The translations under genes were made by a program, and so were the position numbers. Under the pieces are notes generated by a model, which worked only from the letters and a program-made list of their open reading frames with translations, did not search any database and had not been told where the DNA came from. Of a DNA stretch of 59,183 bases, positions 6,664-42,129 are shown piece after piece (positions within the stretch are counted from its first letter, which is position 1; each line of letters starts with the position of its first letter). This DNA is from an uncultured Bacilli bacterium. Its GTDB lineage: Bacteria; Bacillota_I; Bacilli_A; RF39; UBA660. The stretch covers positions 1 to 59,183 of the forward strand of contig CALVRH010000006.1 in assembly GCA_944358535.1 (NCBI GenBank). The letters are read 5' to 3'.

Positions 6664-7593
6664 ATGAAAGAAAAAGTAAGAGAAATTTTTAAAAGTTATT
6701 TTCCAGGTTTCATATTAGGAATAATATCTGTTAGTATTATAACTGTGTATGCTGAAACATTTTTCCCAAGTAATCAAACAACATATGATAATAGTGTAAG
6801 TGGACTAAAATCAGAAAATGTCCAAGATGCCATAGATGAATTATATGGAGTATGTTTTCCACCTAAAGCCGGTGACCAAATACTCGAAAATGCAGGACTT
6901 GAAAAAGACCCATACGAGTGCAGGTATTTCTTTACCGGAGCTAACCCAAATAACTATATCACCTTTAATAATGAAAAAGCAGGTTGGCGTATAATATCAA
7001 TCGAGTGTGATGGGACAATAAAAATAATTAAAGAAGAAGATATTAATAGTAATGATGGTTGTACAGGAGAATGGGATGATAAATCATATAGCAATACATG
7101 GGACAAAACAACATTAAATAAATATTTAAACGAAACGTATTATAATAGTTTTACTGAAGAAACAAAAGCTCAAATCGTGTTACATGATTGGAATATAGGA
7201 ATAATGGAAAGTGATTATGAAAATATGTTAGATCAAATAAATGCTGAAAATAGTACCAAATGGCAAGCTAAAATAGCATTAATAACAGTGAGCGAATATT
7301 TACGCACGAATAGTGATAATAATTGTTTACCAGTTAATAAATATAATTCAAATTTTCGACCTTATAATGATAACTTATGTTTAGATACTACTTGGATATC
7401 TGATCATAGAGGTAGCTGGTCATTAACTAAAAAGGTAGATCCTTATAATCAAAGTCTTCCGATTTATTATTCCACAACCATTAGTACAGAGGTAATATCA
7501 ATGTTTATTCATCCTACTCTTTACCTTTCACCAGATATCAAAATCACTGGCGGAAATGGCAGTCAATCTAATCCATTCGAGCTTTCCCTATAA
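6664..7593 (+). CDS. anchored surface protein with variable C-terminal domain
   Basis: A 309-residue protein of the window's main accessory family. An N-terminal hydrophobic segment (FILGIISVSIITVYAE) acts as signal or anchor. It is followed by the FFPSNQTTYDN and NVQDAIDELYGVC motif, a GANPNNYITFNNE/WRIISIE region, a TVSEYLRTNS block and the C-terminal ITGGNGSQSNPFELS end. The stretch between the Trp of GSWSLT and PTLYLS (DNA 7417-7530) differs completely from the other copies, and it lacks their WW pair. No enzymatic residues are recognisable. It is divergent from an Xre regulator. The domain looks like the DUF6273-type found in gut Bacillota surface proteins; the exact family is not certain. 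Confidence 0.75.
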   Translation: MKEKVREIFKSYFPGFILGIISVSIITVYAETFFPSNQTTYDNSVSGLKSENVQDAIDELYGVCFPPKAGDQILENAGLEKDPYECRYFFTGANPNNYITFNNEKAGWRIISIECDGTIKIIKEEDINSNDGCTGEWDDKSYSNTWDKTTLNKYLNETYYNSFTEETKAQIVLHDWNIGIMESDYENMLDQINAENSTKWQAKIALITVSEYLRTNSDNNCLPVNKYNSNFRPYNDNLCLDTTWISDHRGSWSLTKKVDPYNQSLPIYYSTTISTEVISMFIHPTLYLSPDIKITGGNGSQSNPFELSL

Positions 7594-19304: not shown

Positions 19305-20750
19305 ATGACAGAAACCAAAAAAACAAAAAACAATACAATGTTATCGGCTTTTTCAATTATTTTAATACTAATATTTGCTTTAGGAGTTCTTTCATATATT
19401 TTACCAATCGCTCAGTTTAATGGTGATGCTATTATTAACGGTAGTGGAGTCGTTAGAGCCAAAATATCAGATATTTTAATGGCACCAATATTAGGCTTTG
19501 AAAACGCCATAGATGTTTGTATATTTGTAATCATTTTAGGTGGTTTCCTAGCCATTGTAACAAAAACCGGAGCCTTAGAAACCGGTATCAAAGTTTTAGT
19601 TCAAAAATTAAAAGGTAGAGAAACAATATTAATTCCAATTTTGATGTTTATTTTCTCATTAGGTGGTACAACCTATGGAATGCTTGAAGAAACAGTTGGA
19701 TTTTATGCTTTACTAGCTGCTACCATGGTTGCCGCTAGAATGGACACATTAGTAGGAGCCTCAGTCATCTTGCTCGGTGCTGGATCTGGAGTATTAGGTT
19801 CAACCATCAATCCATTTGCCGTTGGCGCCGCCGTCAGTGCCTTACCAGCTGGCATTGAAGTCAATCAAGGAATTATAATAGGCTTAGGTGTTTTACTTTG
19901 GTTAACAACTTTAGGCATATCTATCTTCTTCGTTATGCGTTACGCAAAAAAAGTTCAAAAAGATAAAGGATCAACCTTCCTATCACTTCAAGAACAAAAA
20001 GCCATGGAAGAAACATATGGTAAAGAAAAAGAACAAACAAAAGCCAAATTAACAAATAAACAAAAATTAACTCTTATAATATTTGCTTTAACATTCTTAG
20101 TTATGATTGTTGGCTTCATTCCTTGGGGTGAATTTGGTATAACCATATTTGATAAATTCACAGGTTGGTTAACCGGAACTCCACTTGGTGGTTGGTACTT
20201 CTATGAAGCAGCTCTATGGTTCTTAATAATTTCTATCATAATAGCTATTATAAATGAATATACCGAACATGAATTTGTCGAAACCTTTGTAAATGGTACT
20301 AAAGATATGATGAGTGTAGTCTTAGTAATTGCTATTGCTAGAGGAGCTAGTGTCTTAATGCAAACAACACACCTAGATAATTATATTATCTATAACACAT
20401 CAGAAGCTTTAAAAAACATGCCAGCAGTTATCTTTGGACCAGCCAATTATATACTTCATATTATTTTATCAGTTCTAGTTCCATCTAGTTCAGGTCTTGC
20501 AACCTTGTCAACTCCAATCATTGGACCACTCGCATCTAACCTAGGTTATAGTGTTGAAGCAACAATCATGACTCTAGTAGCCGCTAACGGATTAGTTAAT
20601 CTAATCACTCCAACCTGCGGTGCAATCATGGGAGGTTTAGCTTTAGCTAAAGTTGAATATGGAACCTGGTTTAAATGGGCTATTAAAGTAGTCACAACAA
20701 TTGCTATTGTAAATATTTTAATCCTAACATTTGCCATGGTAATACTTTAA
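19305..20750 (+). CDS. YfcC/ArcD-type arginine-ornithine transporter
   Basis: 481 residues with about 12 membrane helices, of the YfcC/DcuC-like family (PF03606) often found in arc operons instead of the APC-type ArcD. Visible: LSAFSIILILIFALGVLSYI, FSLGGTTYGMLEETVGFYAL, GSTINPFAVGAA and a C-terminal VPSSSGLATLSTPIIGPLAS. Its place directly after arcC suggests arginine-ornithine exchange; substrate is inferred. RBS AAGGAGGG. Confidence 0.9.
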   Translation: MTETKKTKNNTMLSAFSIILILIFALGVLSYILPIAQFNGDAIINGSGVVRAKISDILMAPILGFENAIDVCIFVIILGGFLAIVTKTGALETGIKVLVQKLKGRETILIPILMFIFSLGGTTYGMLEETVGFYALLAATMVAARMDTLVGASVILLGAGSGVLGSTINPFAVGAAVSALPAGIEVNQGIIIGLGVLLWLTTLGISIFFVMRYAKKVQKDKGSTFLSLQEQKAMEETYGKEKEQTKAKLTNKQKLTLIIFALTFLVMIVGFIPWGEFGITIFDKFTGWLTGTPLGGWYFYEAALWFLIISIIIAIINEYTEHEFVETFVNGTKDMMSVVLVIAIARGASVLMQTTHLDNYIIYNTSEALKNMPAVIFGPANYILHIILSVLVPSSSGLATLSTPIIGPLASNLGYSVEATIMTLVAANGLVNLITPTCGAIMGGLALAKVEYGTWFKWAIKVVTTIAIVNILILTFAMVIL

Positions 20751-24913: not shown

Positions 24914-27139
24914 ATGAAAAATGAAAAAGGATTCTTACTAGCTGAATCTTTAATAGTTTCAACTTTTGTCTTAACCATACTAATTATCCTATTTATTCAG
25001 TTCAGCAATTTAACCAATAATTATAAAAATAGTTATAGCCATAATAATGTCGAATCAATTTATGATTTATCCTCTGTTGCCACTTATTTAACTACAAATC
25101 AATATGACTTGTCTGAATATCTTACCGTCGAAAAACCATATGTTTTAGTTTATAAAGATGATAGTTGTAATCTCGAAATCGGGTTAGCTGATTCCTTCTG
25201 TGATACTCTAATGAATGAAATGGGTGCAAAAACAATTATATATACAAGTTCAGATGTTAAAGCTATTCAGTACTACGTCAATAATAATGAAGACAGGAAC
25301 ATCAGTCAAAAATTCAGAGAATTTATATCTAAAATAGATGCTAAGCCAATTCAAAATAAAGGTAGACTCTTCGCTGAATTTAGTAATGGTACTTTTTCTA
25401 CCATTGCCTTTGATTCAAAATCTGTAAATGACTCTTCTTCATCATTAGAATGTATCCCTGAAAATGTTGTTACTTCAGGATCAGGTATGTATTTTGATGA
25501 CATAGAAGATGGTAAGTGTATCTTTAAAGGCGCCAATCCAAATAACTATATTAGATTTAATGATGAACTATGGAGAATAATCTCTCTAGAATCAGATGGT
25601 ACTATTAAAATAATTCGTAGTGAAACCGAAAGTAATAATGCTTTCGATAACACTGGTGAAAGAGACCAAAATAGTAATGGTTCAGGAGGAACTTACTGTG
25701 CAAATGGTACTTCTGGCTGTAATGCATGGTCAAAAAACGATAACTTTACAAATGGTAGCATTGCCGGTAATGTACTAAAAGACGCATCATTAAATACCTA
25801 TTTAAATAATAATTATCTAAATAAAATAACCACTAATAAAGCTAATATAATCTCTCACGCTTGGAACGTCGGACCAATAACCGCTAATAATGATAATATA
25901 AATAATCAAGTGAATGATGAAAAAGCCATCCAATGGAATGGTAAAATAGGCCTAATTACAGCCTCAGAGTTTATTAGGGCAAACTCAAATACAAATCAAT
26001 GTGGAACTTTAAGTTTAAACAATAATAACTCAAACACCTGTGTAAACACAAACTGGATTTATAATACTGTTCCAGAAACTGGTTACATGTGGACAATAAC
26101 TCCAAATATCAACAATAATAACCAAGTCTTCAGCATAGATAATACACAAAATCAAGGCGTTGTAACTTATAACATAGCTTCTAATAGCCAAAATGCCTAT
26201 GTTACTCCAGTCTTATACCTTTCAGATAGTACAGTCATTACTGGTGGAACTGGAACTAGAGAAGATCCATATTTAATTGATATTGAAAGTATAAAAATAG
26301 AATTAAAAGAACCAACATTTACAGAAGAAGGTATTAATCCAAAAACCATAACAATTCACTTCCAAGAAGAATGTAAAGACACATTAACATGTACATATCA
26401 AGTAAATGGAGGAAGCCCAGTCACAGTAAAAGATACAGAGGCTAAAGTCGATTTTACTGAAAGCGGTAGTATTCTAGCTACAGTATCAGATGGTGAAAGC
26501 ATGCTAAGTAATAGTTATGATGTTGATATAGAAGAACTCGATGATAGTATTACACTTGAAATCTCAACAAGCGCAACTTCTCATAGTATCAATATAGTCG
26601 CTAATGCTAATTCTAACTTTGATATAACAAAATATGAATACTCTAACGATGGCGGTCAAACTTGGCAAAATGGTGGTACTAAAAACACCTATACCTTTGA
26701 AAATCTAACTCAAGGTAAAACTTATAATATCATGGTTCGTGTAACCAATGAAAAAGATGTTCAAGCAACTGAAAGTAGACAAGTAACTACTACTAGCTTT
26801 ACAGTTCCAACCTTTAAAGAAGATGGTATCTATCCAAAAACAGTTATCATCACTTATCCAGAAGGTTGCGGAACAACTTTAACTTGTAGCTATCAAAAAG
26901 ATAATGAACCAGCTGTAGAAGTAAAAACGAATACAGAAGATGTTGGATTTGACTATCATGGTTCAATAGTAGCTACTGTAACTGATGGCACAAATACATT
27001 AAGTAGTTCATATAATGTTAGAATTACATTAAGAGCTGTTGACCTATCTTATGATAATACTAAAACAGGTATGAATTGTGTAGATGCTCAGTGCGCCCTA
27101 GATGAAATTAAAAAGCTTATAGATAAAGAAGGAAATTAA
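24914..27139 (+). CDS. prepilin-like protein fused to the variable surface domain
   Basis: 741 residues. The leader MKNEKG|FLLAESLIVSTFVL is prepilin-like with Glu at +5. Residues about 185-455 carry the domain shared with the 6664, 39614 and 41218 proteins (FKGANPNNYIRFNDELWRII, ..., SEFIRANS, MWTITP, TPVLYLSDSTVITGGTGT). Its variable stretch is DNA 26090-26223 and is Asn-codon rich. Two cysteine-paired modules (ECKDTLTCTYQ; EGCGTTLTCSYQ) flank an Fn3-like SNDGGQTWQN module, and the end (YDNTKTGMNCVDAQCALDEI) matches that of 23170. Likely a pilus-tip or surface-exposed receptor; that is inference. Confidence 0.75.
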   Translation: MKNEKGFLLAESLIVSTFVLTILIILFIQFSNLTNNYKNSYSHNNVESIYDLSSVATYLTTNQYDLSEYLTVEKPYVLVYKDDSCNLEIGLADSFCDTLMNEMGAKTIIYTSSDVKAIQYYVNNNEDRNISQKFREFISKIDAKPIQNKGRLFAEFSNGTFSTIAFDSKSVNDSSSSLECIPENVVTSGSGMYFDDIEDGKCIFKGANPNNYIRFNDELWRIISLESDGTIKIIRSETESNNAFDNTGERDQNSNGSGGTYCANGTSGCNAWSKNDNFTNGSIAGNVLKDASLNTYLNNNYLNKITTNKANIISHAWNVGPITANNDNINNQVNDEKAIQWNGKIGLITASEFIRANSNTNQCGTLSLNNNNSNTCVNTNWIYNTVPETGYMWTITPNINNNNQVFSIDNTQNQGVVTYNIASNSQNAYVTPVLYLSDSTVITGGTGTREDPYLIDIESIKIELKEPTFTEEGINPKTITIHFQEECKDTLTCTYQVNGGSPVTVKDTEAKVDFTESGSILATVSDGESMLSNSYDVDIEELDDSITLEISTSATSHSINIVANANSNFDITKYEYSNDGGQTWQNGGTKNTYTFENLTQGKTYNIMVRVTNEKDVQATESRQVTTTSFTVPTFKEDGIYPKTVIITYPEGCGTTLTCSYQKDNEPAVEVKTNTEDVGFDYHGSIVATVTDGTNTLSSSYNVRITLRAVDLSYDNTKTGMNCVDAQCALDEIKKLIDKEGN

Positions 27140-32879: not shown

Positions 32880-33812
32880 TATTGTCTTTTCCTATCTGTC
32901 TATTTTAATGGGTACAGTTCATTTTACTTTATTTTAGTTGCTTTAATCTTTGGAACCATAGGCGTATCCGCTGCCACATACTTTCCATCTAATGATGTCA
33001 CATATGATAATAAAGAAAGTGGTCTCAAAAGTACTAATGTTCAAGGAGCCATTGATGAACTATATAGTACATGTAAAATACCCGACCAATTAAAGGGAAC
33101 ACCTTTAGAAGACGTACCTATTGTAACAGAAGGAGATGGATTATATAAAGATGAATATGAATATGGAAAATATATATTTAAAGGAGCAAACCCTAATAAT
33201 TATATAACTTTTAATAATGAAAAAGCTGGCTGGCGAATAATTTCAATAGAGTATGACGGTAGAATAAAAATAATGAAAATAACTAGTATAGGTAATATGC
33301 AGTGGCATGATTCCATAATTTATGATTGGGCGACATCAGATTTAAATATATATTTAAATAAAACATATTATAATCAGTTAAATAAGGATGCCAAAAATCA
33401 AATAATCTTTAGTGGTTTTAGTATAGGAGCAGTGGAATATTTAAATAATGATATGAGTACATTAATAAGTAATGAAAACTCTATTATACGGAGTAGCAAT
33501 ATAGCTTTACCAACAGTATCAGAGTATATACGAACAAATAGAAATAAAAATAATTGTGGAACAATGAGATTATTTAATAATAATTATAGAAGTTGTGGAA
33601 GTACGGGATGGATGGATAACAATAATGATTGGTGGGCTATAACGCCTGTTTACGATTCCCCTTCCGACATATACTCTATATCATCGAACGATGCTATCGA
33701 CCGTCGGAATGCTATTTACAATTGTTCTGTATTTCCAGTCCTTTATCTTTCATCAGATACCCAAATCACAGGAGGAACAGGTACTAAATCAGATCCATAT
33801 ACCATCGAATAA
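32880..33812 (+). pseudogene. surface-protein family copy with lost start
   Basis: From about 32937 the frame encodes the family in full: VALIFGTIGVSAATYFPS, SNDVTYDN, TNVQGAIDELY, FKGANPNNYITFNNE, PTVSEYIRTNR, DWWAITP, FPVLYLSSDTQITGGTGT. In this frame there is no ATG, GTG or TTG from the preceding stop (32877) to 33272. The only ATG at the right place (32908) is in another frame, has no ribosome site and stops at TAG 32935. It therefore looks 5'-damaged or a silent cassette. Translation from ATG 33273 would give only the C-terminal 179 residues. The variable stretch is 33630-33753. Confidence 0.75.
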
Positions 33813-39613: not shown

Positions 39614-40537
39614 ATGAAAGAGAGAATAAAGAAAATTATGATTGGATATTTACCAGGATTTATAACAGGATTAATAATTTGTGGAGCAGTAAGTGTAATA
39701 GCAGCTACATATTTTCCAAGTAAAGATGTGACATATGATAATACAGAAAGTGGACTTGAAAGCACAAATGTTCAAGGGGCAATAGATGAGCTTTATGGAG
39801 TATGTACAGCTGAACCACCAGCAGGTGACCAAATAATAGAAGATAATGGCTTAGAAAAAGATCCGTATGAATGTAGATATTTCTTTACAGGTGCAAATCC
39901 AAATAATTATGTAACATTTAATAATGAACCAGCAGGCTGGAGAATTATTTCTGTAGGTTGTGATGGAACAATAAAAATAATGAAAACAGCAAATATTAAT
40001 ACTAGCAATACTTTAGCATGGGATTCATCAAATAGCAATAATTGGGCACGCCCAGCTACATTAAATACATATTTAAATGGAACATATTTAAATAGTTTAA
40101 GTAGTGAAGCTAAAAGTCAAATAGTTGCATCTAATTATAGTATAGGTGCAGTAACATATAATAATAATGATTTAGCGGGTCAAGTAAATGCAGAAAATAG
40201 TAAAACATGGAATGGAAAAATAGCCTTACCAACAGTAAGTGAATATCTAAGAACGAATTCAAATTCAAACTGTAAAACATTCAGGTTGAACAATAATAAT
40301 GATAGTACATGTAAAAATACAACGTGGATGTATGCATCAAATATTAGTGATTGGTGGACCTTGCCGTCTAATTCTGGCAACTCTAAGATCGTGTTCACTG
40401 TGCTTAGCAGTGGCTACTTGAACTACTCCAACGCGCACTATACGAGCACTGCGGTTAGGCCTGCCATAACTCTTTCTTCTGAAGTCCAAATCACAGGAGG
40501 AACAGGAACAGAGTCAGATCCTTACACTTTGAGTTAA
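39614..40537 (+). CDS. anchored surface protein, variable C-terminus with composition jump
   Basis: 307 residues. Hydrophobic anchor (YLPGFITGLIICGAVSVIAA), YFPSKDVTYDN and TNVQGAIDELYGVC motif, FTGANPNNYVTFNNE, WNGKIALPTVSEYLRTNS, then SDWWTLPSNSG and, after a unique stretch, VRPAITLSSEVQITGGTGT. DNA 40352-40478 is about half G+C by hand count, while a sample just upstream (40201-40260) is 19 of 60. Codons there switch to C/G endings. It matches a hypervariable region pasted into an AT-rich gene. RBS GGGAGGAA; divergent from an RHH regulator. Confidence 0.8.
   Translation: MKERIKKIMIGYLPGFITGLIICGAVSVIAATYFPSKDVTYDNTESGLESTNVQGAIDELYGVCTAEPPAGDQIIEDNGLEKDPYECRYFFTGANPNNYVTFNNEPAGWRIISVGCDGTIKIMKTANINTSNTLAWDSSNSNNWARPATLNTYLNGTYLNSLSSEAKSQIVASNYSIGAVTYNNNDLAGQVNAENSKTWNGKIALPTVSEYLRTNSNSNCKTFRLNNNNDSTCKNTTWMYASNISDWWTLPSNSGNSKIVFTVLSSGYLNYSNAHYTSTAVRPAITLSSEVQITGGTGTESDPYTLS
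40352..40506 (+). other. candidate hypervariable region with conserved 3' block
   Basis: Begins at the TGGTGG (Trp-Trp) codons and ends with a 21-base block (40486-40506) identical to 33761-33781 in the broken copy. Between them the sequence has no similarity to other copies. This resembles a variable region plus 3' boundary of a diversity-generating retroelement, but no template repeat or reverse transcriptase is present in the window. Confidence 0.4.
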
Positions 40538-40566
40538 GTATAAAACAGAAGGTAGAACAATTTCGC

Positions 40567-40607
40567 AAACTCCTATAGGAGTTTGGTAGCGGGGCGAATG
40601 CCTCGCC
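40567..40607 (+). repeat. palindrome and hairpin downstream of the variable gene
   Basis: AAACTCCTATAGGAGTTT (40567-40584) is a perfect 18-base palindrome. It is followed by a hairpin GGCGA-ATGCC-TCGCC (40593-40607), unusually GC-rich here, and an imperfect ACCGAAAAAT/ATTTTTTGGT pair (40611-40632). No long T run follows the first two. They lie 30-70 bases after the stop of the 39614 gene. Confidence 0.6.
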
Positions 40608-40638: not shown

Positions 40639-41097
40639 TTGAGTAATACTGGATTAAAGACTCATAGGATATATAATTCGAATAGGCATACATTAACTAA
40701 ATCGCTTGAACTTTATAAAAATTTATATTACAATGAAAATAACCAAGAACCAGAAGTTATATGGTACACATTACTTATAGCAGAAACATTTAGTGAGTTA
40801 TATAAACTAGCTAAAAAAGTACTTGATGAAAAGAAAGTACAAAAATTAATGGAGGCGGTTATCAATATGAGTAAAGATGAATTTATTATTCATGAGTGGC
40901 AGAAAGATAAGATGGATGCTTTAGTTAAACATAACGAACTTGAAGGAGCAAAAAAAGCAGGAAGGCTTGAAGGAATTAAAGAAAAAGAACTCGAAATAGC
41001 AAAAAATATGCTTATAGAAAAAATAGATGAAAAGGTTATTTCAAGAGTTACTGGTCTAACTGAAGAAGATATTCAAAAACTAAAAAGTACTGAATAG
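40639..41097 (+). pseudogene. C-terminal fragment of an Rpn/PD-(D/E)XK gene
   Basis: About 152 codons open from a TTG with no ribosome site. The end (EGAKKAGRLEGIKEKELEIA, VISRVTGLTEEDIQKL) matches the C-termini of the 13643 and 46148 readings, and the middle (VIWYTLLIAETFSELYKLAK) matches the family's central helices. The nuclease part is absent. It is a remnant between two surface-protein copies. Confidence 0.7.
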
Positions 41098-41217: not shown

Positions 41218-42129
41218 ATGAAAGAAAAAATAAAGAAAATAATGTTTGAATATTTACCAGGATTTATATTAGGAGTAATAACAGCAATTAGTATAAGTGT
41301 AATAGCAACGACATATTTTCCAAGTGGAGATGTGACATATGATAATACTGCGAGTGGCTTACAATCAACCAATGTTCAAGGAGCAATAGATGAGCTTTAT
41401 GGAGTATGTACTGCTGAACCACCGGTAGCTGATCAAATAATAGAAAATGCTGGTTTAGAAAAAGATCCATATGAATGTAGGTATTTCTTTACAGGAGCCA
41501 ACCCAAATAATTATATAACTTTTAATAATGAATTATGGCGGATACTTTCGGTAGAGTGTGATGGTTCGATTAAAATAATAAAAAATGAAAGTATAGGAGA
41601 GCATTATTAGGCATCAAATGGCAGTAATAATTGGGCAAGACCAGCTACATTAAATACATATTTAAATGAAACATATTTAAGTGGTCTAAGTAGTAAGACC
41701 CAAAGTCAGATTATTGCCAAAGATTTTAGCATAGGTGGAGTAGCAGAAAATGATACAAATTTAGCTAATACAATTAATAACGAAAATAGTAAAACATGGA
41801 ATGGAAAGATAGCTTTACCAACAGTAAGTGAATATATAAGAACTAACAGCAATAAAAATAGTTGTGGAACAACACAAAAGGTATTCAGCAGTACGTCATG
41901 TGGTAATACATCATGGATGAGCAATAATACTGAATGGTGGACCTTAACACCTTACAGTACGGAGCTTGCAAAGTATGATGGTGTATATGCTGTAACTATA
42001 GAAGGAGCTTTAAATAATTATCCCTTTGTTTCAACATCGAAATATGGTGTTCGTCCAACTCTTTATCTAAACTCTAGTGTCAAACTATCCGGCAGTGGAA
42101 CATCTTCTGACCCATACATCATTTCATAA
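41218..42129 (+). pseudogene. surface-protein family copy interrupted by TAG
   Basis: A 304-codon frame with one in-frame TAG at 41608-41610. Upstream: anchor, YFPSGDVTYDN, TNVQGAIDELYGVC, FTGANPNNYITFNNELWRIL. Downstream, in the same frame: ASNGSNNWARPATLNTYLNE, PTVSEYIRTNS, EWWTLTP, VRPTLYLNSSVKLSGSGTSS. In the 39614 protein the matching position is Trp (LAWDSSN), so TGG to TAG is the simplest explanation. TAG ends parE and other genes here, so it is a real stop. The product may be a truncated 130-residue protein. Variable stretch 41935-42072. Confidence 0.8.

Follow-up and report, generated by a model that had tools for sequence, protein, structure and literature searches.

Dispersed or multiple targets have been described for several diversity-generating retroelements (DGRs). 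The DGR of the TvpA family in Treponema denticola has remote targets, up to 7 of them (PMC4891356), Thiohalocapsa PB-PSB1 carries 9 DGR loci and 15 targets, cyanobacterial DGRs are accompanied by CLec paralogues (PMC7517822, PMC10907252), and larger counts of variable repeats (VRs) are on record for atypical elements (PMC6642488). The domain DUF6273 has itself been published as a target of phage DGRs, the VR being located at the C-terminal end in Faecalibacterium prophages (PMC11792537), and has a C-type-lectin-like fold (PMC10743442). Here, we analyzed a 59,183-nucleotide stretch of DNA from an uncultured Bacilli bacterium (hereafter “the window”), in which the segment at 40358–40465 (plus strand) of a DUF6273 gene is almost certainly the VR of such a retroelement. 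As in T. denticola, a single reverse transcriptase (RT) and template repeat (TR) would serve dispersed targets with a CLec fold, with changes concentrated at template adenines; unlike in T. denticola, the system targets DUF6273 proteins of a Bacilli bacterium, the accessory genes are MutS_I-like and bAvd, and 13 VRs can be assigned to two templates among ~45 paralogues in 1.33 Mb. The proteins of the Faecalibacterium prophages and the tentaclins (PMC11792537, PMC10743442) share the Pfam domain and the CLec-like fold, and the former also the C-terminal position of the VR, but they belong to phages, in which one or two targets occur, whereas the targets described here are dispersed in a bacterial genome and have an N-terminal helix compatible with a membrane anchor. 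Closer in organization are the cyanobacterial and Thiohalocapsa systems, with several DGRs and remote targets per cellular genome and traces of duplication and mobile elements, although no kinase or NTPase domains were seen here and the genome is only 1.3 Mb. The mechanism is already known, and what is notable is the number of targets relative to the small size of the genome.

The target gene (39614–40537, plus strand) is an open reading frame for a 307-aa protein that matches DUF6273 over the cut-off (PF19789, E=4.9e-9), and the VR ends 72 bases ahead of the end of the gene. In an AlphaFold model based on 39 aligned sequences (mean pLDDT 84.7), the C-terminal CLec domain is well predicted, while a low-confidence N-terminal helix fits a membrane anchor; the modeled protein is probably an N-terminally anchored surface protein. 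Structure matches of the model are dominated by CLec domains, including many C-type lectins, and the T. denticola DGR protein TvpA (2y3c) is among them with a middling score (Z 6.2). The best Foldseek match (9qa6, Z 17) is with an IgA peptidase, in its N-terminal domain; we took it as evidence of a common fold only and not of a protease function.

An earlier note, made from the letters of the sequence, had singled out an abrupt GC-rich and codon-shifted segment between conserved landmarks near the end of this gene, and the composition bears this out. G+C content is 51.9% at 40358–40465 against 30.6% in the preceding part of the gene (39614–40351), and third-codon-position G+C rises from 0.13 to 0.69. 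Across the window, only 0.08% of 108-base stretches reach this level, all of them at two sites, namely the VR segment and 19723–19871. The 5' edge is abrupt and falls at two Trp codons (TGG TGG, 40352–40357, plus strand), located where the note had placed them and common to set-A paralogues (defined below), whereas the 3' edge is formed by RPAITLSSEVQITGG, which is common to paralogues, as is the conserved C-terminal tail that follows (ITLSSEVQITGGTGTESDPYTLS and stop, 40466–40537, plus strand). The excess of G+C stands, although the count over 127 bases (40358–40484) is 62 rather than 63, and a variable segment is indeed present but narrower than the proposed 40352–40506, since the variable part proper, with the mutable codons, spans ~40364–40455.

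The genome of the window (G000; 1.33 Mb in 55 contigs, the window being on contig C6) contains a large family of related genes. A protein search with the target yielded 50 matching places, or ~45 distinct gene copies, and a DUF6273 profile search gave 35 matches. Once aligned, the C-termini of the paralogues fell into two sets, each with positions that are fixed and others that vary: eight VRs in set A (the window VR on C6, C1, C31 twice, C7, C9, C48, and C11) and VRs at five loci in set B (C21, C14, C34, C22, and C7). Many further paralogues lie outside both sets, with mostly AT-rich C-termini. Differences between VRs fall mainly at first and second codon positions (198 and 203, vs 69 at third positions), and in the set-A alignment of the window VR with its seven paralogues and the TR sequence, changes cluster at template adenines. 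That the segment is simply a conserved GC-rich domain of the ordinary kind, whose codon usage reflects selection, is barely credible: it does encode part of a compact CLec domain, but it ranks among the most variable parts of the family, which refutes this reading, and the abundance of paralogues with AT-rich C-termini also speaks against it.

Further members of the family occur within the window, all on the plus strand: a paralogue with an AT-rich C-terminus (6664–7590), a target-like domain (25499–26278) within a 741-aa open reading frame, another paralogue (32928–33809), and a neighboring paralogue (41218–42129) with an in-frame TAG at ~41608 and a GC shift of lesser degree. Between the latter and the target gene lies an open reading frame (40639–41097) ending in EGIKEKELEIAKNMLIEK, which matched no Pfam family over the cut-off and whose C-terminus resembles those of Rpn-family nucleases. 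DNA resembling this region is also found downstream of the C1 target.

If the segment is a VR as we propose, its formation would start from the RNA of a template repeat in which AAC and AAT codons stand between fixed GC-rich codons. During reverse transcription of this RNA copy, random bases would be placed across from adenines, and the resulting cDNA would then be substituted for the homologous 3' segment of a target gene, altering ~15–20 probably ligand-facing residues on the CLec-fold domain. One set of genes (RT, bAvd, and MutS_I-like protein) would then serve many dispersed paralogues in trans. We infer retrohoming in trans, the surface role, and the identity of the RT acting on family A.

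A PF00078 search of the genome identified three RTs, on C21, C33, and C42. The C21 RT displays the motifs IGGLSSQ and YMDD, and is of the DGR type under the rule that IGxxxSQ takes the place of QGxxxSP; the earlier note had foreseen such an enzyme elsewhere in the genome. The C42 RT belongs to a different family, the group II intron type, and has no target beside it on its contig. Next to the C21 RT are a template repeat, a target gene, a relative of the MutS_I-like protein, and a bAvd gene. This template (TR-B) lies at C21:9025–9134 on the minus strand, 596 bases downstream of the adjacent VR, and matches VRs at five loci of the genome. In a comparison of TR-B with five different VR sequences (four of this genome, the fifth being that of a near relative, G020), 71 of 150 adenine cells were changed as opposed to 10 of 350 others (p=7e-33, which like the other pooled p-values counts related VRs as independent and is indicative). 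The near relative encodes an RT 99% identical to that of C21 and also has this TR-B, there next to another VR, with an insertion-sequence-like stretch between the VR gene and the template (L114:3100–4560). The bAvd gene on C21 includes an in-frame TAA (L025:8140–8440), and the copy of the near relative (L114) is open there.

The C21 template was ruled out as a direct source of the window VR by poor alignment, and the sequences point to two template families in this genome, i.e., B, with an intact TR on C21 and five loci, and A, which includes the window VR. The set-A template was first inferred from the VRs and then searched for in genomes. Only left halves were detected in the window’s genome, at C31:1019–1086 and C11:101–167; an intact family-A TR was not found in this assembly, which is 90.5% complete, nor was an A-type RT beyond an N-terminally truncated frame on C33 (64% identical to the A-type RT). 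An exact-pattern search of viral contigs for TR-A gave no match. A right half was identified in a congener (G042), 96% identical to the VR-inferred template over 69 bases; because it stands in front of a target-gene tail, it may itself have been copied from the template and not be the working template locus. When set-A VRs were compared to a composite physical TR, joined from the left half of G000 and the right half of G042, 93 of 210 adenine cells but only 41 of 420 others were changed (p=3e-22, again indicative). Adenines in the complete related template of another congener (G002) predict which columns vary among six VRs of the window’s genome, with 33 of 36 adenine columns variable vs 23 of 72 others (p=2e-9), in line with the kind of system that the earlier note had proposed.

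Taken alone, the window VR shows a modest bias against the composite TR (13 of 35 adenine vs 9 of 70 other cells changed, p=0.006), and 6 of its 19 changes relative to the inferred template are at non-adenine positions. These two features suggest that it has drifted or recombined since it was last rewritten, or else that its exact template differed. The bias is not significant for the C7 VR of set A (p=0.2). The assignment of the window VR to a DGR hence draws on the templates of relatives and on its seven sister VRs. A genome-wide check for templates, as the note had advised, was successful to the extent that the C21 TR differs from its VRs almost only at adenines, but it did not recover an intact template of the window VR itself. 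Adenine-directed mutagenesis had also been put forward as the origin of the high G+C content, which holds in kind but not in amount. Both templates are already at ~48% G+C and VRs at 52–60%, so that mutagenesis adds 4–11 points, and most of the jump from 31% is inherited from the fixed codons and positions of the template (AAC, GTG, GCG, and GGC).

Some sequence exchange between these genes does seem to occur. The VRs and 3' flanks of the C21 and C14 targets (L025:9555–10478 and L091:1435–2394) are identical, which suggests recent conversion or duplication. Modules composed of a hairpin, a template start, either unmutated template or VR, and a target tail were also observed 3' of target genes, on C31 (L057:1019–1227) and in G002 (L165 and L166; G002:C4:31753–31889 and G002:C1:53204–53340). 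The C31 module was considered as an intact TR and rejected, as its first 39 template positions are template-like and the remainder VR-like. By their sequence, these hybrids look as if a VR–hairpin–TR cassette had been converted into another target via TR–VR recombination. Both observations would be expected if gene conversion or recombination between paralogues, or the horizontal acquisition of a cassette rich in G+C, had created the segment without any retroelement. We nevertheless consider such an origin very improbable: recombination cannot by itself restrict changes to template adenines, so that the adenine bias largely refutes it, and it leaves the RT, TR, and bAvd genes unexplained.

Complete A-type cassettes were identified in relatives of this bacterium. 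In G002, the complete template is followed by MutS_I-like, bAvd, and RT genes, while G020 encodes another complete related template beside its own target and MutS_I-like, bAvd, and RT genes. The RT of the G020 cassette is 43% identical to the C21 RT, and its best match (PDB 8ub7, E=3.9e-33), the DGR RT of Bordetella phage BPP-1, is far above group II and other RTs. The bAvd (PF22296) and MutS_I proteins of this cassette are over Pfam cut-offs, and their C21 homologues align to them at 38–41%. Among known DGR accessories is MSL (PF01624, MutS domain I; PMC10053308). A prophage origin of the A cassette obtained no support from the viral collection, in which the nearest RTs (IMG/VR) are only ~36% identical to the cassette RT. 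At the place in G020 syntenic to that of the window gene, the target copy is absent and only the neighboring paralogue was found.

Downstream of the stop codon of the target gene are two hairpins, the inverted repeat CAAACTCCTATAGGAGTTTG (40566–40585, plus strand) and the GC-rich GCGGGGCGAATGCCTCGCC (40589–40607, plus strand). The CAAACTCCTATAGGAGTTTG unit also occurs downstream of several other set-A targets and of the complete cassette of G020, and strong hairpins lie ~100 bases past the VR in the window, C31a, C11, G002, and G020, but not in C48, C31b, and C7. In four genomes (G000, G020, G004, and G042), the end of a tyrosine-recombinase (RIT-like) element abuts the set-A template, or sequence resembling it, at one and the same ACGTGTT site, with the left or right half of the template remaining beside it (G000:C11:101–167, i.e., L076, minus strand; L162:1–1145; L171:1–2190; L263:1–217). 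The recombinase genes themselves were seen at the junctions of G020 and G004. The set-A template hence appears to have been split by this element in G000 and relatives. In G004, the A-type RT adjoining the split template is shortened (293 aa vs 377; L171:3208–4089).

These junctions bear on the present activity of the system rather than on the DGR origin of the VR. We give about even chances to the A system being dead in this genome, with a mobile element having interrupted its template and the RT either truncated or gone, in which case the DGR-made VR would now only drift and recombine with paralogues. Consistent with this, the TR-A start on C11 runs for 38 bases up to the palindromic end of an element, a junction shared by G020 where it adjoins tyrosine-recombinase genes, the sole A-type RT of the assembly is the truncated C33 frame, and the window VR includes non-adenine changes. 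Conversely, repeat-rich loci, DGR cassettes among them, can drop out of metagenome-assembled genomes, and complete cassettes of the A type are present in both G002 and G020. Most fixed GC-rich positions are also preserved in the window VR, and its third positions are still far from the 13% G+C of the gene. A more speculative and rather unlikely extension of the DGR reading is that the retroelement feeds a repertoire of dozens of CLec surface proteins among which VR, hairpin, and TR pieces are gene-converted, and that the RIT-like element, by repeatedly entering one template site, acts as a possibly reversible off-switch.

Across the first-listed 12 genomes of the genus, G000 included, the expansion of DUF6273 accompanies the retroelement, although these genomes are few and incomplete and the numbers small. 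Between 17 and 35 DUF6273 matches were counted in G000, G002, G004, and G007, and 5 to 9 in G005, G006, G008, and G011, all of which encode DGR-type RTs. Conversely, G003, G009, and G010 displayed 1 or 2 DUF6273 matches and no RT match was found there, while G001 had none, along with only RT remnants full of stops. Overall, these results add a cellular DGR system with many targets in very small genomes of gut Bacilli, a setting with many related genomes in which to compare in-trans diversification, competition between templates, and the loss of DGRs. Provided that the target proteins are surface-exposed, which their anchors suggest, this points to strong selection for variation in what the cell presents to phages, competitors, or the animal host.
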